Assembly: GCF_028463845.1 (NCBI RefSeq)
Contig: NZ_CP116805.1
Span: 806,001-870,000 of the forward strand
Direction of reading: 5' to 3'
From: Gimibacter soli
GTDB lineage: Bacteria > Pseudomonadota > Alphaproteobacteria > Sphingomonadales > Kordiimonadaceae
DNA: 64,000 nucleotides
This document shows positions 42,351 through 52,633 of the stretch, in pieces. Under the pieces are notes generated by a model. It saw only the letters and a list, made by a program, of their open reading frames with translations. It did not search any database and had not been told where the DNA came from. Both the position numbers and the translations under genes were made by a program. Position 1 is the stretch's first letter, and each line of letters starts with the position of its first letter.

Positions 42351-43325
42351 TCAGGGAAGGATCAGGTTGTCGGTCGCCTTGATCAGCTCATGGCGGATGC
42401 CGGGCTCGAAGGCGGAATGGCCGGCGGCGGGCACCACTTTCAGCGTCGCCCACGGCATGGCCTGTGCCAGCTCGAAGGCGGAAACCGGCGGGCAGATGGC
42501 ATCGTACCGGCCTTGCACGATGGTGGTCGGCACATGGGCCAGCCGGTCGGCATCGCGCAGGATCTGGTTGTCGGTTTCAAGGAAGCCCTTGTGGACAAAA
42601 TAATGGGCCTCGATCCGCGCGAAGGCGAGGGCGAACTCGGGGTCCACCGACAGGCGCTGCTGGCCTTCGTCGGGGATCAGCGTCACCGAACTGGCCTCCC
42701 AAAGGCTCCATTCCTTCGCGGCCATCAGGCGCTGGCCGGAATAGTCGGGGTCGGTCAGGCGGCGGTGATAGGCCGCGATGATGTCATCCTGTTCGTCATC
42801 GGGGATCAGGGCGCTGAACCTTTCCCACGCCTCGGGGAAGATGGCGCGGGTGCCGTATCCGTAAAACCAGTCGAGCTCGCGCTGACGCATCAGGAAGATG
42901 CCACGGAGCACCAGATGCGTCACCCGGTCGGGGTGCGTTTCGGCGTAAAGGAGCGCGAGGGTCGAGCCCCAGCTGCCACCAAACAGCGCCCAGCGCTTGA
43001 TCGCGAACTTTTCGCGGATCAGTTCCATATCCGCGACGAGATGCCAGGTCGTGTTGTTTTCAAGGCTCGCATGCGGGCGGCTGCGGCCACAGCCGCGCTG
43101 GTCAAACAGGATGATCCGGTAGCGCGCGGGATCGAAGAAGCGGCGCTGCATCGGGCTGGTGCCGCCGCCGGGGCCGCCATGCACGAAAAGGATCGGATAG
43201 CCATCCGGGTTGCCGGACTGCTCGACATAAATCTCGTGGCCATCGGGCGTGCGGATATGTTCCCGCGCGAAGGGCTCGATGGCGGGATAGAGGGGGCGTC
43301 TCTCTTCTAGCGTGAAGGCGTCCAA
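42351..43325 (-). CDS. pip: Proline iminopeptidase
   Basis: A 324-residue S33-family alpha/beta hydrolase that removes N-terminal proline. The TTG at 43325 is preferred as start: AAGGAG lies six bases upstream and the product begins about ten residues before LYP, as in the family. An ATG at 43412 would add 29 unlikely residues. Landmarks are VHGGPGGGTSP, FDQRGCGRSRPHASLENNTTWHLV, the nucleophile in FGGSWGSTLAL, the Asp of GRYDAICPP and the His of AGHSAFEP. It precedes the copper chaperone by about 25 bases. Confidence 0.88.
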   Translation of the reverse strand: MDAFTLEERRPLYPAIEPFAREHIRTPDGHEIYVEQSGNPDGYPILFVHGGPGGGTSPMQRRFFDPARYRIILFDQRGCGRSRPHASLENNTTWHLVADMELIREKFAIKRWALFGGSWGSTLALLYAETHPDRVTHLVLRGIFLMRQRELDWFYGYGTRAIFPEAWERFSALIPDDEQDDIIAAYHRRLTDPDYSGQRLMAAKEWSLWEASSVTLIPDEGQQRLSVDPEFALAFARIEAHYFVHKGFLETDNQILRDADRLAHVPTTIVQGRYDAICPPVSAFELAQAMPWATLKVVPAAGHSAFEPGIRHELIKATDNLILP

Positions 43326-43497
43326 GCCCTGCTCCTTGTCGCTGCGGTCTATCCTGCAGCATAAAAGCGGGGAAGGCGGGGCGCAAGCGCACTTGCGACC
43401 CTTGATCTGCATGACGTGCCCCTCAATTGCCGGGCGGGCTCTAGGTGCGTTGCGCGCCCCTCAAGCGCCGGGCGGGCTGATTGGGGGCGTCGCCGCT

Positions 43498-44334
43498 TCA
43501 GGCTGCCACGCTGCGGTCGCCTTCGCGTTCCTTGAGGCGGGCCTCGATAAATTCGTACGAGACAAGGTCGTCAGCATCGATGGGCGCATCGGCGAACGGC
43601 AGGCGCACGCAGTGGGCCTTGATGCCGAATGCCTTGCCGGCGCGCTTCTCGAGCCCCGACAGCGTGGTGAGGCCGTAGCGATACAGAAGGAACGACCACA
43701 GGCCGACCATCGGCAGCAGCGCGCGGCGCTTCTTCTTGTTGCCGAACTGGCCGCCGGCGCGGAACAGCTCGATGGCGCCAAGCGCCCTTTCGGTGACCAC
43801 TGAATAGATATTGCAGTTGGACCAGATGGCATCGCGGAGCACATGGCGGCCGGTGATCTTGCCGGTGCCGGGATAGGTTTGCTGGATGAGGGCGTCATCC
43901 GTCATGCCCCATGCGGCTTCGGCGCCGGTGTTGATGATGTCCTTCAGGAAGTAGGACACGATCTCGGCCGAATGCAGGCAGTTGTCTGCGGTCGTGATAA
44001 AGAGCGGCAGCGCCGACGGGCCGCCCAGTTCGTCAATCGCGCCCACCACGCTCTGCGACAGGGTCTGGCGGCTGGTGGTGAAAACGATCCGGCCCGCATC
44101 ATGCAGCTTCTTCACGCCGGGGAGCGCGAGGGCGATGGCAGGGTCCTCGATCGAAACGGCGATGCGGTCGACCTCCGGCACATCGGCGAGATAGCCGACG
44201 ACGCGGTCAAGCATCGGGGTGCCGTTGACCGGCAGGGTGCATTTGTGGCTGACGCCAAAGTGCGAAGCGAGGGCATTCACGATGCCCGGACGCTGGGCGG
44301 CAAGCACCAGCGCTGTAAAACGGAGGGTGGTCAT
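43498..44334 (-). CDS. MobA-like nucleotidyltransferase, copy 1
   Basis: A 278-residue protein with an NTP-transferase fold. The usual GxGxR-xPK entry loop is modified to LAAQRPG ... GVSHKCTLPVNG near residues 12-39, then MLDRVVGYL. The metal aspartate sits in FITTADNCLHS near residue 114, and the C-terminus has PFADAPIDADDL, like the DIDTPED end of MobA and IspD relatives. It is clearly a paralogue of the gene at 45551, which shares GVSHKC, the TT(A/G)DNxLH block, the SNCN/SSCNLY block, GGQFG and the end. Divergent from the ATP-grasp gene. The nucleotide and acceptor are unknown. Confidence 0.75.
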   Translation of the reverse strand: MTTLRFTALVLAAQRPGIVNALASHFGVSHKCTLPVNGTPMLDRVVGYLADVPEVDRIAVSIEDPAIALALPGVKKLHDAGRIVFTTSRQTLSQSVVGAIDELGGPSALPLFITTADNCLHSAEIVSYFLKDIINTGAEAAWGMTDDALIQQTYPGTGKITGRHVLRDAIWSNCNIYSVVTERALGAIELFRAGGQFGNKKKRRALLPMVGLWSFLLYRYGLTTLSGLEKRAGKAFGIKAHCVRLPFADAPIDADDLVSYEFIEARLKEREGDRSVAA

Positions 44335-44376
44335 TCTGGCTGTCCTATTGTCCCTTTTTTGGGACTTTCCTAGTGC

Positions 44377-44405
44377 TTGACAGGGTGAAGGGCAAGCTCT
44401 ATTGC
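44377..44405 (+). promoter_or_regulatory. Strong promoter of the ATP-grasp gene
   Basis: TTGACA (44377-44382), a 17-base spacer and TATTGC (44400-44405). A dyad GTCCC-T6-GGGAC lies just upstream at 44350-44365, between this promoter and the divergent nucleotidyltransferase gene. Confidence 0.55.
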
Positions 44406-44463
44406 GCTTTCCTTAGCCTCCAGTGACTTATGCTTGCCAAATTTTGTGGCCTGGCTGACACAC

Positions 44464-45546
44464 ATGACACAAAGGAACGCCGATTTGTCCGGTATTGCGC
44501 TCGAGCACCTGCTTTTCGAAGGGGGTGCCCCCCTCCGTCTCAAGCCTGAAGACAAGGCACGCCTGAAGGTCCTGTTCCTGGCCAAGCATGCGCTCGCCGG
44601 CGGCCAGTTCGATAAAACCGACGGCACGCACTCGATGTATCATGATGAAATCAAGTCTTGCCTTGAGGGGCTCGGGCTCGATGTGGTGGCGTCGAACAGC
44701 TATGAAGCGCTGTTCCATTCAAAGATCGACCAGAATTACGTCTTCACGCTTTTCAACCGCGGCGGCTTCCGCAACAGCGAGATTCTGGCTTCGTGCCTGT
44801 GCGAATATCTGGGCGTGCCCTATATGGGGGCCGCTCCTTCGATGCGCGGTTTTGCCGATGACAAGCATCTGGTGAAAACCATGTACCGCGATCAGGGTAT
44901 CCCGACGCCCGAGTGGCAGATTTACCGCACCGCCGACCAGTCGGCCCCGGCCCCGGATTTCAAGGCCGAACGCTATGTGGTGAAGCCGAACAACAGCTCG
45001 GCCTCCTATGGGCTCGCGCAGGGCACCGACTGGGAAGAGCTGAAACCGCAGGTGCTGGCGCTTCTCGCTGAAAACCATGATGTGATCGTCGAGGAATATG
45101 TGCCCGGCATCGATGTTTCGGTGCCTGTGGTAGCGGCTGGCAAGCCGTGGATCCTCTATCCGATGATGAACCCGGCCACCGAAGGCGAGTTCGTGGTGAC
45201 CTACGAACAGAAGCGCGGCTTTGCCTCGGTGCCGCCCATCGAGTTTTTCAAGGATCATGAAAAGTACCCGGCCCTCGTCGACTATACGCAGCGGGTCAAT
45301 GCGATGGTCTGGCCCTATGATTATGCCCGGTTCGACTATCGCATCGATCCGACCGGCAAGGTCTGGGGCTTCGAGTTCAACGTCTCGTGCAACCTTGGCG
45401 CCAAGCGGGCGATCTGCCAGTCGGCCAAACTGCTCGGCTATGAGCAGAGCGATATTGTCGAATCGGTGATTGCAAGCAGCCTCGAGCGTCAGCGCTTCAT
45501 GTTTGAAGCTGCGCTCGAAGGCCGCAAGATCCGCTACAAGACGTAA
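44464..45546 (+). CDS. D-alanine-D-alanine ligase-like ATP-grasp enzyme
   Basis: A 360-residue ATP-grasp ligase. It resembles Ddl at FTLFNRGGFRNSEILASCLCEYLGVPYMGA, DDKHLVKTMYRDQGIPTPEW, the ATP loop YVVKPNNSSASYGL, VIVEEYVPGIDVSVPVV and the metal site FDYRIDP ... FEFNVSCNLG. The N-terminal 60 residues and the acceptor region differ from true Ddl, so the amino acid or carboxylate joined is unknown. The ATG at 44464 lacks a good ribosome site; a TTG at 44485 behind AAAGGA is an alternative. It lies between two paralogous nucleotidyltransferase genes, so a shared pathway is inferred. Confidence 0.78.
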   Translation: MTQRNADLSGIALEHLLFEGGAPLRLKPEDKARLKVLFLAKHALAGGQFDKTDGTHSMYHDEIKSCLEGLGLDVVASNSYEALFHSKIDQNYVFTLFNRGGFRNSEILASCLCEYLGVPYMGAAPSMRGFADDKHLVKTMYRDQGIPTPEWQIYRTADQSAPAPDFKAERYVVKPNNSSASYGLAQGTDWEELKPQVLALLAENHDVIVEEYVPGIDVSVPVVAAGKPWILYPMMNPATEGEFVVTYEQKRGFASVPPIEFFKDHEKYPALVDYTQRVNAMVWPYDYARFDYRIDPTGKVWGFEFNVSCNLGAKRAICQSAKLLGYEQSDIVESVIASSLERQRFMFEAALEGRKIRYKT

Positions 45547-45550
45547 AAGC

Positions 45551-46363
45551 CTATTCGGCCGCCATCCGGCGCGCTGTCAGGATTTTCTCGGCCAGCTTCA
45601 CGTCACCCGGATTATCCACATCGATGGGGGCATCCGCATAAGGCATGCGTACCACTTTCACCGTGGCGTGCCAGCGGTGCGACAGAAGCTTCGCAAGGCC
45701 GTGGATGGTTGCGAGCCTGAAGCGGTACAGAAGCATGAACGACAGGCCGAACGCCTTGCGGATACGTTCCGGCCGTTTGCCGAACTGGCCGCCGCCTTCA
45801 AACACCTTGGCGGCGCCGAGCGCGCGAACCGAATTCAGCGCATAAAGATTGCAGCTCGACCAGCCGCCGTCCTTCAGTTCGTGGAAGGCGCGCTTGCCCT
45901 CGGGGTAGGCTGCCAGAATGTCTGCCGCCGGTGTCATGGCGACGCCGACGTCTGCCGGGTCCCGCGCCAGTTCAGCGCAGAAGTGATCGATCATATCCGG
46001 CGTGTGCAGCGGATTATCGCCCGTGGTGATGACAAGCGGATAGGGATTGCTGATCACGGCGACACCGGTGGTGACCGACGCGAAGAGATTGTCGGCGCTC
46101 GGCACGAAGGCGATCCGGCCTTCATCAAGCCATGCCTTCAACTGCGGCACGCTTTCCAGAAGTTCCCTGCTTTCGATGGAAACGAAGATGCGGCCGACGG
46201 ACTGCGCCGCGATCAGGGTTTCGACAACCCGTTCCAGCATCACCTTGCCGTCCAGGCTGATCAGGCATTTGTGGCTGACCCCCTGCAGTTTCGCCACAGC
46301 GTCTTCCGCGCCCCGCCGGCTGGCCGCCAGCACGAGCGCGGTAACGGTACCATTTTTGCTCAT
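45551..46363 (-). CDS. MobA-like nucleotidyltransferase, copy 2
   Basis: A 270-residue paralogue of the protein at 43498. The start at 46363 has GGGAGA eight bases upstream. It shares ALVLAASRRG, GVSHKCLISLDGKVMLERVV, the metal site VITTGDNPLHTPDMI, WSSCNLYALNSVRALGA, GGQFG and PYADAPIDVDNPGD. It lacks the canonical GxGxR loop in the same way, so the pair forms a distinct subfamily. It converges on the ATP-grasp gene with a 4-base gap and is followed upstream on the same strand by the MmgE/PrpD gene. Confidence 0.75.
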   Translation of the reverse strand: MSKNGTVTALVLAASRRGAEDAVAKLQGVSHKCLISLDGKVMLERVVETLIAAQSVGRIFVSIESRELLESVPQLKAWLDEGRIAFVPSADNLFASVTTGVAVISNPYPLVITTGDNPLHTPDMIDHFCAELARDPADVGVAMTPAADILAAYPEGKRAFHELKDGGWSSCNLYALNSVRALGAAKVFEGGGQFGKRPERIRKAFGLSFMLLYRFRLATIHGLAKLLSHRWHATVKVVRMPYADAPIDVDNPGDVKLAEKILTARRMAAE

Positions 46364-46390
46364 TTCGGTTCTCTCCCTGCCCCTCATGGG

Positions 46391-47788
46391 TCAAACCAGT
46401 TGTTTGTGAAGTTCCCTCACTGGCATGTCGCTGTCCATCTCTTTCAGCATGGCCTTCACCTTGTCCCGGCGGTCGGCGTCCAGAAAACCTGCAACGCAGG
46501 CATCGAACTTGTCCCATAGTTGCGCTTCTGTGAGCGGATGGATCGTGCTGCCGACAGGGAAATCAACCTCAGTTGATACCGTGCGGCCGTCTTTGAGTGT
46601 TACATGGACCTGCGTGGAAAACTCGGATTCGAGCTTTTCGACATAATCCTTCCGGACGAGGGGCAACAGGGCCGTCACCTCGGGGCGGGCGATGGCCTCA
46701 AGCTCATAATCGCCAAGACCGGCGTTCCCGGTGAGAAGCCCGACCGCGAGGCCATACTCTAGGCTGAATTTGGCTTCGGCAGATGTCACCGGGCGCTCAT
46801 ACATCAGGTTGCGGAGGTGCGCGGCAGGGGCGCGGACCAGAATATGGTCCACATCCGCCGGGCCGAAGCCATGCTTGGCGCGCAGTTCCAGAAGCCCATC
46901 GAGCGCGCGGTGGACGCTGCCGCAGTTCGGGAAGCGCTTCACCTTCAGGCCGTATTTCTCGATCATCAGCGGATTGCCGATGTCCCTGGCGCTGAATTCG
47001 ACCTTCTGGCCATATTCATCGATGTTTTTCATGCGCTCGCGGAGTTCAGCCACATCGGGGCCGACCATCAGCGCGCCCATCCCGTGGGGGCCATGCAGCG
47101 TGTTGGCGCCCGCTGTGATCCCGGCTTCTGCCATCAGGGCGGCTTCCACGGCGCCGCGGGCTGCGAGGCCGGCGTGCAGGGGCTTTGTCATGGTGCCGAA
47201 CTGGCTCATGAAGCCGCCGGCGAGGCTGGTGGCGATGCTGACGGCGTGCGCGGCGCGCTCGGCATCAAGCCCGATCAGACGGGCGACCCCGGCGGCTGAC
47301 CCGACGGCGCCGACCGTGGCGGTGGCATGCCAGCCGCGGCTGCGGTGGAACGGGTTCACCCCTTGCCCCACCCGGCCGATGATCTGCAGGCCGACGATAT
47401 AGGCGTCGATGAGCGCCGCACCCGTCATGCCGCGCGCTTCGGCCACAGCGAGAAGGGCCGGGGCCAGCACGGCGGTGGCGTGTGCCTTGGCGGGATCGAA
47501 ATTGTCATCGAAATCGAGCGCGTGCGCGGCTGTGCCGCCGACAAGGGCGGCCATCGGTGCCGAAAGGCCTTGCCCGTAGCCGACGGTGCGGCAATCGCCG
47601 CGGCCCCAGTCGGCCGCCAAGGGGATCAGGCGGCGGGTCACGTCTTCGTGGGCGCCGGGCACCATGCAGGCAATCACATCGATGAAAGCATCGCGGGCGC
47701 GGGTGCGGGCGAGCGGCGACCAGGCATCAGGCGTTTCTGCCGTCCAGCGGGCGATCGCGTGCAGCGGGTTATCTGGATCGAATGTCAT
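46391..47788 (-). CDS. MmgE/PrpD family protein
   Basis: A 465-residue member of the 2-methylcitrate dehydratase (PrpD) / MmgE / cis-aconitate decarboxylase fold. Landmarks are ALDFDDNFDPAKAHATAVLAPALLAVAE, HRSRGWHATATVGAVGSAAGVARL, GTMTKPLHAGLAARGAVEAALMA, KRFPNCGSVHRALDGLLEL and AEAKFSLEYGLAVGLL, all in family order. No prpB or prpC is nearby, so the methylcitrate cycle is not implied; the enzyme probably acts on another hydroxy acid. It lies 27 bases from nucleotidyltransferase copy 2 and may be co-transcribed with it. Confidence 0.87.
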   Translation of the reverse strand: MTFDPDNPLHAIARWTAETPDAWSPLARTRARDAFIDVIACMVPGAHEDVTRRLIPLAADWGRGDCRTVGYGQGLSAPMAALVGGTAAHALDFDDNFDPAKAHATAVLAPALLAVAEARGMTGAALIDAYIVGLQIIGRVGQGVNPFHRSRGWHATATVGAVGSAAGVARLIGLDAERAAHAVSIATSLAGGFMSQFGTMTKPLHAGLAARGAVEAALMAEAGITAGANTLHGPHGMGALMVGPDVAELRERMKNIDEYGQKVEFSARDIGNPLMIEKYGLKVKRFPNCGSVHRALDGLLELRAKHGFGPADVDHILVRAPAAHLRNLMYERPVTSAEAKFSLEYGLAVGLLTGNAGLGDYELEAIARPEVTALLPLVRKDYVEKLESEFSTQVHVTLKDGRTVSTEVDFPVGSTIHPLTEAQLWDKFDACVAGFLDADRRDKVKAMLKEMDSDMPVRELHKQLV

Positions 47789-47939: not shown

Positions 47940-49115
47940 GTGGATGCCACTAGCCCGGCCGCCGATGCCGGACCGCCGCCCGACACCTTCGTGTGCGTGG
48001 GCGATGCAGGGCCGACATGTGTCGTCGCCCTGAACGGTGCATGGACGCTCGCCAATGCGGAAGTGATCGACCGGCACGTGCGGGCAGCCCTCCGCTATGC
48101 CGCGCGGCAGGCCGGGGAGCGACCGATGATGATCGACTGCAGCGGTATCGACACGCTGGATACGACCGGCGCCGTCCTCATCCGCCGTTTCGCCGCATCG
48201 CTGGAGGAAAAAGCACCGGCGATGGTGACCGGCATTGCGGCGCGCCACAAGCGGCTTCTGGAAGTTATCAACTGCCGCCAGCCGGCTGTTGCCATCGCGC
48301 CCGACATGCTGCCGTGGCACCTGCGCCTTCTGGAGGATGTGGGCATCGCGAGCATGCGGCTTGCGAACGAAACCGCGAACCTCCTGTCCTTCATCGGCAA
48401 CGTGCTTGTCCGCTTCTTTGGCCTGTTCCTCAATCCTTCCCGGCTTCGGGTCACGGCCCTTGTTCACCAGATCGATGTGGTGGGCGTGCGGGCGATGGGG
48501 ATTGTGGGGCTTATTTCCTTCCTCATCGGTGCCGTGATGGTCAACCAGGGGGCGGTGCAGCTGGCCAAGTTCGGGGCCGATATTTTTGTGGTCGACATGC
48601 TGGGCATTTCGCACCTGCGCGAGCTTGGCATCCTCCTCACCGCCATCATCGTGGCCGGTCGGTCCGGCAGTGCTTTCACCGCCGAAATCGGCTCGATGCA
48701 GCTGCATGAAGAAATCGACGCGATGAAGACGATCGGCATGAACCCGATCGATGTGCTGGTGCTGCCGCGCCTGATGGCGCTGATGCTGGCCTTGCCGCTC
48801 CTCGGTTTTTACGCCGACATGGTGGGGATTGCCGGGGGCTCGCTGATGGCATGGGTGCAGCTTGGCATCAGCCCCGCCAACTTCTTCATCTATTTCCGCG
48901 AGGTGATCTCGATCGACCATTTCATCGTCGGTCTTGTGAAGGCGCCCTTCTTTGCCGCCGTGATTGTGGTCAGCGGCTGCTATCAGGGGCTGACGGTTGA
49001 AGGCAGCGCCGATTCGCTGGGCCGCCACACCACGCGGGCGGTGGTCGAATCGATCTTTCTGGTGATCGTCCTCGACGCGCTTTTCTCGATTTTCTTCACG
49101 GCTATCGATTTGTGA
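47940..49115 (+). CDS. Mla-type ABC permease with N-terminal STAS domain
   Basis: A 391-residue MlaE-family permease for phospholipid transport between membranes. Residues about 20-115 look like a STAS domain (DCSGIDTLDTTGAVLIRRF), in place of a separate MlaB. The permease has the family core GVRAMGIVGLISFLIGAVMVNQGA, ELGILLTAIIVAGRSGSAFTAEIG, EEIDAMKTIGMNPIDVLVLPR and VKAPFFAAVIVVSGCYQGL. The first standard start is the GTG at 47940, but a perfect GAGGAGA sits at 47909-47915, 6 bases before an in-frame ATC at 47922. It heads an operon with the three next genes. Confidence 0.88.
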   Translation: MDATSPAADAGPPPDTFVCVGDAGPTCVVALNGAWTLANAEVIDRHVRAALRYAARQAGERPMMIDCSGIDTLDTTGAVLIRRFAASLEEKAPAMVTGIAARHKRLLEVINCRQPAVAIAPDMLPWHLRLLEDVGIASMRLANETANLLSFIGNVLVRFFGLFLNPSRLRVTALVHQIDVVGVRAMGIVGLISFLIGAVMVNQGAVQLAKFGADIFVVDMLGISHLRELGILLTAIIVAGRSGSAFTAEIGSMQLHEEIDAMKTIGMNPIDVLVLPRLMALMLALPLLGFYADMVGIAGGSLMAWVQLGISPANFFIYFREVISIDHFIVGLVKAPFFAAVIVVSGCYQGLTVEGSADSLGRHTTRAVVESIFLVIVLDALFSIFFTAIDL

Positions 49116-49125
49116 GGGGCAGGGC

Positions 49126-49950
49126 ATGACAACCGAAACCGACCTGATCGAAAAACCTGAAGCGGAGAGCGACGTGCCGGCTATCCGCGTGCGCGGACTG
49201 GTCACGGGCTTCGGCCCGCAGATCGTGCATGACCATCTGGACCTTGACGTGAAACGCGGCGAAATCCTCGGCGTGGTCGGTGGCTCGGGCACTGGTAAAT
49301 CGGTGCTTCTGAAGGCCATCATCGGACTGATCACGCCGATGGACGGCGAGATCGAGATCAACGGCGTGAACCAGCATCGGCTGGTGGGTGATGCGGCACA
49401 GGCGGCCCGGCGCGAATGGGGCGTGCTCTTTCAGGACGGGGCGCTTTTCACCTCGCTGACCGTTGCCCAGAATGTGCAGGTGCCGCTGCGCGAGCATTTC
49501 CGGCTGGCGGAAGACCTGATGGACGATATCGCCCGCTCCAAAATCTCGATGGCGGGCTTGCCGCTTGATGCGGCGTGCAAATATCCGTCCGACCTTTCAG
49601 GGGGCATGCGCAAGCGTGCGGCCCTTGCCCGGGCGCTGGCGCTTGATCCGTCGATCCTCTTCCTCGATGAGCCGACGGCAGGGCTTGACCCCATCGGCGC
49701 CTCGGCTTTCGACCAGCTCATTCTCGACCTCAAGGCAGCCCTTGGCCTCACCGTCTTTCTCGTGACCCATGATCTTGATACGCTGCACACGATCTGCGAC
49801 CGGGTGGCGGTGATCGCCGAGAAGAAGGTGCTGACCATCGGCACGCTTGATGAGGTCGCCCGCTTCGATCATCCCTGGGTGCGGGACTATTTCTCCGGCC
49901 CCCGTGCCCGTGCCGCCGGCATCACCTCCGGCAAAGCGAAGGAAGTCTGA
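49126..49950 (+). CDS. Mla-type ABC transporter ATPase
   Basis: A 274-residue MlaF-like ATPase. Walker A is GGSGTGKSVLLKAI near residue 53, followed by WGVLFQDGALFTSLTVAQNV (MlaF Q-loop), signature LSGGMRKRAALARALAL near 160, Walker B ILFLDEPTAGLDPIGA and switch VTHDLDTL. The GMRKR and DPIGA forms are MlaF-specific. It follows the permease by 10 bases and precedes the MCE gene by 4 bases. Confidence 0.93.
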   Translation: MTTETDLIEKPEAESDVPAIRVRGLVTGFGPQIVHDHLDLDVKRGEILGVVGGSGTGKSVLLKAIIGLITPMDGEIEINGVNQHRLVGDAAQAARREWGVLFQDGALFTSLTVAQNVQVPLREHFRLAEDLMDDIARSKISMAGLPLDAACKYPSDLSGGMRKRAALARALALDPSILFLDEPTAGLDPIGASAFDQLILDLKAALGLTVFLVTHDLDTLHTICDRVAVIAEKKVLTIGTLDEVARFDHPWVRDYFSGPRARAAGITSGKAKEV

Positions 49951-49954
49951 CGTT

Positions 49955-50929
49955 ATGGAAACACGCGCATCCCACGTTCTGGTTGGCGGCTTCGTGCTCC
50001 TTTTCATCGCGGGGCTCATCGGCTTTGCCATCTGGCTCGCCAAGGTGGATCTGGACCGGGAATATACCGATTATGACATCTATTTCGATGGCACGGTTTC
50101 GGGCCTCTACAAGCGCGGGACCGTTTACTATCTCGGTATCCCGGTCGGTGAAGTGCGCGATATCACGCTGGCGCCCAACGACCCCCGCAAGGTGCGGGTC
50201 TGGGTGCGGCTCGATGGTGACGTGCCGGTGAATGAAGGGGCGACCGCGCGGCTCGAGTTTCAGGGGCTCACGGGGGTTGCCTATGTGGAAATCAAGGGCG
50301 GGGACCCGAGCCGCCCGGTGATCGAGGCGATGGACGGCGCGCCGCGCCCGGTGATCCCGTCCGAAGCGTCGGCCTTTCAGGAGCTTTTCGAAAGCGCGCC
50401 GAACCTGATCAACGAAGCGATCATGACCGTGGTGCGCCTGCAGATGCTGCTGTCGGACGAGAATCTGGCGAGCGTGCGGGACACGCTGGCCAACCTCAAC
50501 AAGGTTTCCGGCAATGTGGCCGCGGCAAGCGAGGATATCGGCGGCCTTCTGGTCGATACCCGCGCCACGCTGCAGGCCGCGGCAGTGGCGGCTGAAAACC
50601 TTGGCAAGCTGGCGGACAGCGGCAATGCGCTCCTTGAATCCGATGGCAAGCGGATGGTCGACGAGGCCGTCGCCACGATGGAAACGGCACGCGCCATGCT
50701 CGCCCGGATCGACGGGCTTGTGGCTGCCAACGAAGGCACCGTGACCCAGTTTGTGGGCGGCACGCTGCCTGAGGTATCGCGCATGGTGATGGACCTGCGC
50801 CGTGCCAGCCGCAACCTTTCGCGCCTCATCGGGCGGATCGAACAGCGGCCCGGCGATGTGCTGTTCGGACCGGGTCCGGAACAATATGACATGAAGAATC
50901 GCCCGAAACAGGAAGGGGACGATCAATGA
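49955..50929 (+). CDS. MCE-domain lipid-binding protein (MlaD-like)
   Basis: A 324-residue single-pass periplasmic protein. The ATG at 49955 has GGAAG about nine bases upstream. Residues about 8-30 are the anchor helix (VLVGGFVLLFIAGLIGFAIWLA). The MCE domain (about 40-118) has YDIYFDGTVSGLYKRGTVYYLGIPVGEVRDI and GLTGVAYVEI. A long helical part (about 150-290) follows, as in longer MCE proteins. It would form the lipid channel ring of the Mla complex. The stop overlaps the lipoprotein start by ATGA. Confidence 0.93.
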   Translation: METRASHVLVGGFVLLFIAGLIGFAIWLAKVDLDREYTDYDIYFDGTVSGLYKRGTVYYLGIPVGEVRDITLAPNDPRKVRVWVRLDGDVPVNEGATARLEFQGLTGVAYVEIKGGDPSRPVIEAMDGAPRPVIPSEASAFQELFESAPNLINEAIMTVVRLQMLLSDENLASVRDTLANLNKVSGNVAAASEDIGGLLVDTRATLQAAAVAAENLGKLADSGNALLESDGKRMVDEAVATMETARAMLARIDGLVAANEGTVTQFVGGTLPEVSRMVMDLRRASRNLSRLIGRIEQRPGDVLFGPGPEQYDMKNRPKQEGDDQ

Positions 50930-51586: not shown

Positions 51587-52633
51587 TCAGCGTAGGCGGG
51601 CGGCGAGGGCGCTGATCTGGCGGTCCATCCGGTCGAGCCGCTTTTCCTGCTCCACCAAGAGGCCACCAAGCAGGTTGGTGATACTGTCGAGATCGAGCGA
51701 TGCGGCGGCTTCTTCGAGGCTGATATAGGGCTTTTCCCGCGCAGGGAAGAGCGGGCCATCGATGCAAAGCTGGCGGGCGAGAGCATCGTTTTCCGCGGCA
51801 AAATGACCGGCGATTTTTGCAGTCAGGGCCGGCGGCAACAGGGTGCGCGCCGTGCCTGAAAGGCGGACATCTTCCTCAAGGGCCGCAAGCGCGCCGACGA
51901 TCTGGTCCGAGAAGGATTGAGGGGGCTTTAGCCGGTTCAGGCGCAGCAGCAGCGGCAGATATTTGTGCGGCAGGCTGGCGTTGATTGTCTCCGCGGGCTG
52001 CTCGAGTGTGGCGGGGTCAACACCGAGGTAGGCCGAGGCGGTGGCAAACAGGTCGTCCGCCGGATAGCGGTGCACGCGCACATTATCTTCCCCCGCGATG
52101 GCCTGCAGGCCTTTCACGAAGGTGCCGAAATGGAGGTGCAGGAAATCCTTGTAGATAGCGCCGATATAGCTTTCGGGGTCTGCCGTCAGCGCCCGGCGTT
52201 TCACATGCTGCACATAAAGCGATTCGAGATAGGCCGCCTGGTCGCGCACATAGAGAAGGATCTTGAGCCCGTATCCTTGCGCGGCGGCGACGTCCGCCAA
52301 TCGCTGCATCTCGGCGGGTTCGATATCAGAGAAGAACTCGCTTGAAAGCAGCAGGTCCCGGCCTGCGCCATTACCCAGCATCTCGGCGAAAAGCTTCAGC
52401 TGGGCGTCGCGCGTATCGGCGCGCTGCATGAAATTGCTTTTGGGCAGCAGGCTGCGCGCGAGCCACACGCCGTTGCCGGACGTGATAAGGCCGGCCTCTG
52501 CGCGCTTGCGGTTGCCCGTATCGGGGTAGCGGATGCCGGCAGCGGCAAGCTTCTCGGCGTTCCGCGCGAAATAGACCTGCAGGGCCGATGAGCCTGTCTT
52601 GAAAATGCCGATATGCAGGTAGCAGGTATTCAT
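51587..52633 (-). CDS. Sulfotransferase-like protein
   Basis: A 348-residue cytosolic protein. The N-terminus YLHIGIFKTGSSALQVYFARN has the K-T-G-S-S form of the PAPS 5'-phosphosulfate loop, and the later ILLYVRDQAAYLESLYVQHVKR has the 3'-phosphate-binding Arg. This fits the bacterial sulfotransferase fold that includes capsule- and lipid-modifying enzymes. The substrate is unknown. The C-terminal 60 residues are helical and probably form an extra segment. Tail to tail with the Mla operon, and right behind the drug exporter gene. Confidence 0.72.
   Translation of the reverse strand: MNTCYLHIGIFKTGSSALQVYFARNAEKLAAAGIRYPDTGNRKRAEAGLITSGNGVWLARSLLPKSNFMQRADTRDAQLKLFAEMLGNGAGRDLLLSSEFFSDIEPAEMQRLADVAAAQGYGLKILLYVRDQAAYLESLYVQHVKRRALTADPESYIGAIYKDFLHLHFGTFVKGLQAIAGEDNVRVHRYPADDLFATASAYLGVDPATLEQPAETINASLPHKYLPLLLRLNRLKPPQSFSDQIVGALAALEEDVRLSGTARTLLPPALTAKIAGHFAAENDALARQLCIDGPLFPAREKPYISLEEAAASLDLDSITNLLGGLLVEQEKRLDRMDRQISALAARLR

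Follow-up and report, generated by a model that had tools for sequence, protein, structure and literature searches.

Two related nucleotidyltransferase modules at a Kordiimonadaceae locus and their possible role in cell-envelope decoration

A 64,000-nucleotide window (positions 806001-870000) of the single-contig, 3.59-Mb genome of Gimibacter soli encodes two nucleotidyltransferases on the reverse strand, denoted NT1 and NT2, that flank a forward-strand ATP-grasp enzyme resembling D-Ala-D-Ala ligase (Ddl), denoted GRASP, with an MmgE/PrpD-family enzyme, denoted MmgE, encoded upstream of NT2 on the same strand. NT1 (window positions 43498-44334, reverse) is a MobA/IspD-type nucleotidyltransferase of a GRASP-linked clade with a PF12804 domain and the motifs AAQRPG, GVSHKC, and APIDAD; NT2 (45551-46363, reverse) belongs to an MmgE-linked clade and combines PF12804 with AASRRG, GVSHKC, and APIDVD. 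GRASP occupies an open reading frame at 44434-45546 (forward) with a PF07478 domain, and MmgE (46391-47788, reverse) comprises PF03972 and PF19305. An initial annotation had described this arrangement from the letters of the window, and both the open reading frames and the Pfam families bear it out. The nearest named relative found was Pseudokordiimonas caeni (L004; Kordiimonadaceae), whose GRASP is 97% identical.

The GRASP frame opens at TTG 44434, and its likely true start is ATG 44464, which is common to P. caeni. NT2 starts at ATG 46363, 27 nt past the MmgE stop, with a longer alternative at ATG 46387, and GRASP and NT2 converge with 4 nt separating their stop codons. NT1 and GRASP diverge from a 99-bp intergenic region (44335-44433, measured to the TTG start) in which TTGACA is followed 17 nt on by TATTGC. 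The strong promoter previously assigned to GRASP was not recovered, as a promoter scan scored no site upstream of the gene and the -10 hexamer matches at only three of six positions. A mobile or phage origin of the locus was considered and rejected, since no relative of GRASP was confirmed in viral contigs and a plasmid search at 1e-20 returned no match.

Both NTs exceed the PF12804 gathering cut-off of 27 bits (34.6 and 49.7 bits) and are 39% identical to each other, with AAxRxG, SHKC, and PIDxD in common. The canonical entry loop of MobA-like nucleotidyltransferases is GxGxR. Among 15 NTs picked from GRASP or MmgE loci, the loop was AAxRxG in place of this form in all 15, and SHKC was likewise present in all 15. 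R15, K31, D117, D253, and D255, which we take to be the catalytic Arg and Lys and the metal-binding Asp residues, were also invariant (15/15). The entry loop is thus altered as first described, through AAxRxG and GVSHKC, but the retention of R15 and K31 indicates a loop that was rearranged and not lost; the claim that the metal aspartate and the PIDxD end are kept stands (D117, D253, and D255). Across a wider set of 70 NT sequences SHKC occurred in 39, comprising 39 of the 50 members of one clade (type A) and none of the 20 members of another (type B). The sharing of the motif exceeds what chance would give, and SHKC is a mark of most, but not all, type-A NTs.

The predicted model of NT2 (pLDDT 86.5) recovered 2dpw first in a fold search (Z 24.2, 227 of 231 residues), followed by GlmU (UTP) and the cytidylyltransferases IspD and TarI. 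Structure 2dpw is TTHA0179, an uncharacterized protein of Thermus thermophilus and the closest solved structure to the NTs (profile E 2e-23 and 4e-14), although identity is 22% and TTHA0179 has GVGSKA where the NTs have GVSHKC. With the IspD, KdsB, and TarI cytidylyltransferases the NTs share their fold, K31 and D117, and a Ser, invariant in 15/15, that aligns with the Ser of the IspD 'SV' and that presumably contacts cytosine. However, they differ from these enzymes in their neighbors and in their scores to the family models. This bears on whether the NTs simply serve routine cofactor or isoprenoid synthesis (molybdopterin, F420, or IspD) next to accidental neighbors, as the MobA-like name of PF12804 and weak matches to IspD and KDO-cytidylyltransferase models might imply. 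All listed scores to the NCBIfam models for IspD, KDO cytidylyltransferase, MobA, and MocA were far below cut-off (best 29.6 vs 234), and a cofactor-enzyme identity was rejected on this basis. Further, one to four NT genes are present in each genome with a match, and type-A NTs track GRASP or MmgE (see below), which together make this explanation highly improbable.

The C-terminal PF07478 domain of GRASP scores 46.6 bits against a cut-off of 24, whereas NCBIfam Ddl and Van models score below cut-off (66.9 vs 245.65 at best, among the best 25 of 37 matches). Ddl enzymes carry Arg-x-Asp and Glu-x-Asn motifs, the latter followed by TLPGMT. In 21 GRASP sequences the Glu-x-Asn residues E314 and N316 are invariant and R299 is nearly so, as in Ddl; unlike Ddl, position 301 is Asp or Glu and the segment past Glu-x-Asn holds an invariant Cys, mostly as CNL. 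The predicted GRASP model was poor (pLDDT 60.5). Both domains of MmgE are well above cut-off (176.8 and 109.7 bits vs 32.1), whereas scores to the 2-methylcitrate dehydratase PrpD equivalogs are far under (39.3 vs 950 and 37.8 vs 575). MmgE shares its family with cis-aconitate decarboxylase/IRG1 and with iminodisuccinate (IDS) epimerase (2hp3), its closest solved relative. His99 and Tyr145 are described as the two bases of IDS epimerase in the available text of PMC7347537. His99 aligns with H103 of MmgE, which is invariant in 20/20 orthologs, but Y145 aligns with R149, an equally invariant Arg (20/20), such that the second of the two bases is replaced.

To describe the distribution of these genes, we used 147 genomes from the order of G. 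soli, 29 of them from Kordiimonadaceae and three (G093, G099, and G104) only 76 to 80% complete. GRASP (profile A2) matched 36 genomes, all of which were kept, including the distant G060 and G086. MmgE orthologs, defined by more than 430 bits to profile A3, were present in 26 genomes; this threshold drops one weak-match genome (G066) and leaves out a second match in G100. The NT profile (A4) matched 95 genomes, 54 of which encode type-A NTs (at least 230 bits; nearest scores either side 231 and 212, with a cut at 240 losing G019, G035, G080, and G097) and the rest type B. In wider samples GRASP had matches in 5 of 385 genomes at class level, two of these 385 being the window genome and another genome of its order, and in 2 of 145 genomes from the order of Oceanospirillum, including Oceanospirillum sediminis.

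GRASP and type-A NTs occur together in 33 genomes, with 3 encoding GRASP only, 21 the NT only, and 90 neither (33/36 with GRASP vs 21/111 without; p 3e-15). The corresponding numbers for MmgE and type-A NTs are 26, 0, 28, and 93, and those for either partner are 50, 3, 4, and 90 (50/53 vs 4/94). Within Kordiimonadaceae, a type-A NT is present in 26/26 genomes with GRASP or MmgE and in 0/3 with neither. The same association recurs outside of this family for GRASP (16/19 vs 12/99 without) and for MmgE (8/8 vs 20/110). Because the relatedness of the genomes inflates the independence assumed by the p-values, we regard this recurrence as the better argument. The genes are also close to each other. 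Of the 33 genomes with both GRASP and a type-A NT, 22 have the two genes no more than 400 bp apart, or 23 when G146 is scored by its additional GRASP copy, which is 129 bp from the NT; for MmgE and a type-A NT the figure is 20 of 26. Conversely, GRASP and MmgE are unassociated (9 both, 27 GRASP only, 17 MmgE only, 94 neither; p 0.21). These data support the suggestion in the initial annotation of a functional link between nucleotide activation and carboxylate-amine ligation, and they speak against independent occurrence of the NT-GRASP and NT-MmgE pairs, but not of GRASP and MmgE within the order. A single pathway of four genes was accordingly rejected as a general rule, while the accompanying idea of a modified lipid headgroup or sugar fits the neighbors described below.

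The gene set divides into two modules, one pairing NT1 with GRASP and the other pairing NT2 with MmgE. In a tree of 70 NT sequences, which was read without examining branch support values, type-A NTs form a clade of their own and the NT clades of the two partners are largely separate. The NT1 branch comprises other NTs that are divergent from GRASP, plus one from a contig stretch lacking GRASP (L121), and the NT2 branch comprises MmgE-linked NTs, plus three with no MmgE called beside them (L122, L124, and L139). A third type-A branch comprises Kordiimonadaceae NTs directly downstream of GRASP together with NTs of a sphingomonad-like family (f5).

The two pairings alternate at one site in Kordiimonadaceae. 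It is bordered on the left by a prolyl aminopeptidase gene (pip; 42351-43412, reverse), identified by NCBIfam search and synteny, and on the right by mlaE-mlaF-mlaD-like genes (47940-50929, forward), which are named from their letters and supported by synteny; these border genes are probably not part of the proposed pathway. Of the 26 Kordiimonadaceae genomes with a partner gene, 9 encode both and 17 carry just one (GRASP in 8, MmgE in 9), usually at the single pip-mlaE site. In all 8 GRASP-only genomes, pip and mlaE flank the GRASP-NT pair. Among the nine MmgE-only genomes, six have the MmgE-NT pair flanked by pip and the mla genes and two have it beside pip on short contigs; the locus of the ninth (G104) was not fetched. 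Of all fetched loci, those of the window, P. caeni, and K. sediminis were the only ones with the gene order NT1-GRASP-NT2-MmgE.

Surface-glycan and lipid genes neighbor the NTs in related genomes. At 20 type-B loci, two of which also carry a type-A NT (L006 and L115), a PF04464-like family was present in 11 and a CDP-alcohol-transferase-like family in 3. Two members of the former scored 27.8 and 21.5 bits in Pfam against a cut-off of 22.1, and one member of the latter scored 45.2 against 22; the PF04464-like family member encoded by the window genome itself had no Pfam match at 0.001. In f5, nine genomes encode a type-A NT far from GRASP, and a Wzx-type flippase family (Pfam run on L129 and L055) adjoins the NT in six of the eight such loci fetched, the exceptions being L130 and L142. 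One genome (G146, L055) unites an NT, two GRASPs, the flippase, and a protein of ~500 aa that lies beside GRASP in 8 of 16 fetched f5 loci (L049, L055, L057, L058, L074, L076, L078, and L080). This protein had no match in Pfam (L049 and L055) or NCBIfam (L049 and L076) and chance-level matches in the PDB (L049); from one motif it looks to be of the PLP type.

We also examined five stretches from four genomes of an alphaproteobacterial family outside the order (f46). In one stretch from each genome (L187, L188, L190, and L191) MmgE is beside NT2 with a GT2 gene nearby, accompanied by a UDP-sugar-dehydrogenase-like gene in L187, L188, and L191 and by a sulfotransferase-like family in L187, L190, and L191. 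The fifth stretch (L189) carries a second, NT1-like NT without these neighbors. The sulfotransferase-like family, with the P-loop SRCGSTL, occurs near NT2 outside Kordiimonadaceae (L122-L124, L126-L128, L139, L187, L190, and L191). It exceeds 450 bits in 10 of the 147 order genomes, all 10 of which have a type-A NT, and four further genomes match weakly (82 to 116 bits), none with a type-A NT. Its single Pfam match, in one member, was below cut-off, and one PDB match was at chance level.

Collectively, these observations are compatible with a pathway for cell-envelope decoration that is encoded at the locus as two related modules and in which the NTs are CTP-dependent cytidylyltransferases, an interpretation that we hold tentatively and consider slightly short of an even chance. 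NT1 and NT2 would join CMP to a small acid or alcohol that bears a phosphate, and the resulting CDP-activated group would then be transferred to a lipid or glycan. MmgE, the partner of NT2, might make or remodel the acid through dehydration, hydration, or epimerization beside a carboxylate, while GRASP, the partner of NT1, might spend ATP in joining a carboxylate and an amine on the same moiety. In the initial annotation, MmgE was a possible supplier of a hydroxy acid. CTP is most likely the nucleotide because CDP-transferase-like genes lie beside sister NTs, and the fold and the position of the Ser point the same way; the phosphate-bearing acceptor, the sequence of reactions, and the envelope target are likewise putative. 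An analogy for GRASP, set beside it by description only, is the amidation of the HS:2 capsule of Campylobacter jejuni (Cj1438 C-terminal ATP-grasp and Cj1435), in which ATP-grasp amide ligation decorates a surface polysaccharide with a phosphorylated amine whose phosphate is removed later, according to the available text of PMC11800379. Unlike GRASP, that enzyme is a TupA-like ATP-grasp fused to a GT2.

Several points weigh against this interpretation. CTP is a putative nucleotide, and the folds of GlmU (UTP) and CobY (GTP) are similar to the NT2 model. The score cut-offs were set after the scores were known, and the p-values overstate independence among related genomes. Three GRASP genomes (G059 plus the distant pair G060 and G086) have no type-A NT, and type-A NTs occur with neither partner in G007, G013, G019, and G026. 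Five genomes (G034, G038, G073, G093, and G099) have MmgE and GRASP-NT1 but no NT2, and the link of MmgE to NT2 is thus not absolute. Lastly, all 29 Kordiimonadaceae genomes, including that of the window, lack the sulfotransferase-like family, and the glycan neighbors of the f46 loci are therefore not the window's own.

The closest described context is synthesis of the CPG2 headgroup in Caulobacter crescentus, where nucleotidyltransferases of an alphaproteobacterium (the CofC-like CC_1153 and CpgD) serve an anionic envelope lipid. In the text available, CpgD (CC_1152/CCNA_01210) is a CTP:phosphoglycerate cytidylyltransferase that makes CDP-glycerate and has conserved R16, K26, and D112 (PMC12275187), with structures in PMC13228409; Arg, Lys, and Asp counterparts are invariant in window-type NTs. 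That same text names neither an ATP-grasp nor an MmgE enzyme, and the comparison made here is one of description and gene order. The NTs could nonetheless be CC_1153 relatives that activate a phosphoglycerate-like group for ceramide lipids in sphingolipid headgroup synthesis, with MmgE and GRASP as variant tailoring enzymes, although we consider this unlikely. Mutants of CC_1153 and CC_1152 are reported to be without CPG2, and the published order CC_1153, CC_1154 (N-acyltransferase CerS), and CC_1155/CC_1156 (LptG2/LptF2) (PMC11324152, as available) resembles a locus of another family, outside the order (L192), where an NT (223 bits, between type A and B, and outside the tree) is next to a 388-aa protein and LptF/LptG paralogs. 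This 388-aa family (44% identical in L148) adjoins type-B NTs at 3 of the 20 loci (L147, L148, and L152), lies ~4 kb from NT2 in L123, and is encoded by 28 of 29 Kordiimonadaceae genomes. The window genome is among them, but there the family lies at 2.5 Mb and NT1/NT2 at 0.85 Mb, and type-A NTs are a clade apart. Moreover, the putative orthology with CC_1153 is drawn from comparing the gene order at L192 with the published one, and the 388-aa family is read as CerS from its size, its position, and the published term 'N-acyltransferase' for CC_1154. CpgD was not among the PDB matches listed for the NT profiles, though the copy of the PDB searched may not include it.

A further set of observations that runs counter to envelope decoration comes from O. 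sediminis, which lacks a type-A NT (best NT-profile score 26 bits) yet encodes both GRASP and MmgE. There, the two genes, independent of each other within the order of G. soli, lie together in a single gene run (L007, 3916-11883) in which an NtrC-like regulator and PhnD-/PhnE-type transporters are followed by GRASP, a major facilitator superfamily (MFS) gene, and MmgE. This run suggests that GRASP and MmgE were transferred together, and its transport genes would fit catabolism; the two enzymes may act together without a type-A NT or may have another function in this organism. GRASP and MmgE could be catabolic enzymes that process an imported acid or amide, with the NTs as incidental neighbors. 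IDS epimerase, the closest solved relative of MmgE, is itself a degradative enzyme. Nevertheless, the NT pairings are strong across the 147 genomes, the GRASP family makes bonds at the expense of ATP, and MmgE has the invariant R149 at the position of Y145, the second IDS epimerase base, all of which lead us to regard a catabolic role as quite improbable.

With respect to envelope decoration, a more specific proposal, which we offer as doubtful, is that the modules yield a new kind of CDP-activated building block, namely an acid shaped by MmgE or an amide formed by the Ddl-like ligase, which a dedicated NT would cytidylylate before its transfer to a lipid or glycan of the envelope, with the modules interchanging at one site. 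Literature searches, with most subscription papers outside their coverage, returned no paper that joins MmgE, a nucleotidyltransferase, and ATP-grasp, none on Kordiimonas and nucleotidyltransferases, and none naming TTHA0179. If correct, this proposal would imply that species differ in headgroup chemistry within one design through modules swapped at a single site, would add amide-forming and carboxylate-remodeling branches to the CDP-activated headgroup chemistry of Alphaproteobacteria, and would provide a two-module system in which envelope chemistry is predictable from gene content. It would also provide functional clues for the uncharacterized TTHA0179-type nucleotidyltransferases.

Several additional observations were made on genes related to or near those at the locus. 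A P-loop gene at window positions 51587-52633 (reverse), a few kb from the locus, reads as sulfotransferase-like and had no match in L004-L008 at 1e-5. The window genome also encodes a third NT paralog (G000:C1:1228039-1228815; L003 and L009) that is fused to a HAD-type phosphatase and adjoins a 397-aa protein, which clusters with PF04464-like transferases of other genomes. Distant GRASPs at L059 and L073 lie beside a GATase_7-domain family that we read as asparagine-synthetase-like, and L059 also holds a flippase and a PF00291 enzyme. Finally, in another alphaproteobacterial family (L070 and L071), two diverged GRASP copies flank a gene encoding a 363-aa protein.

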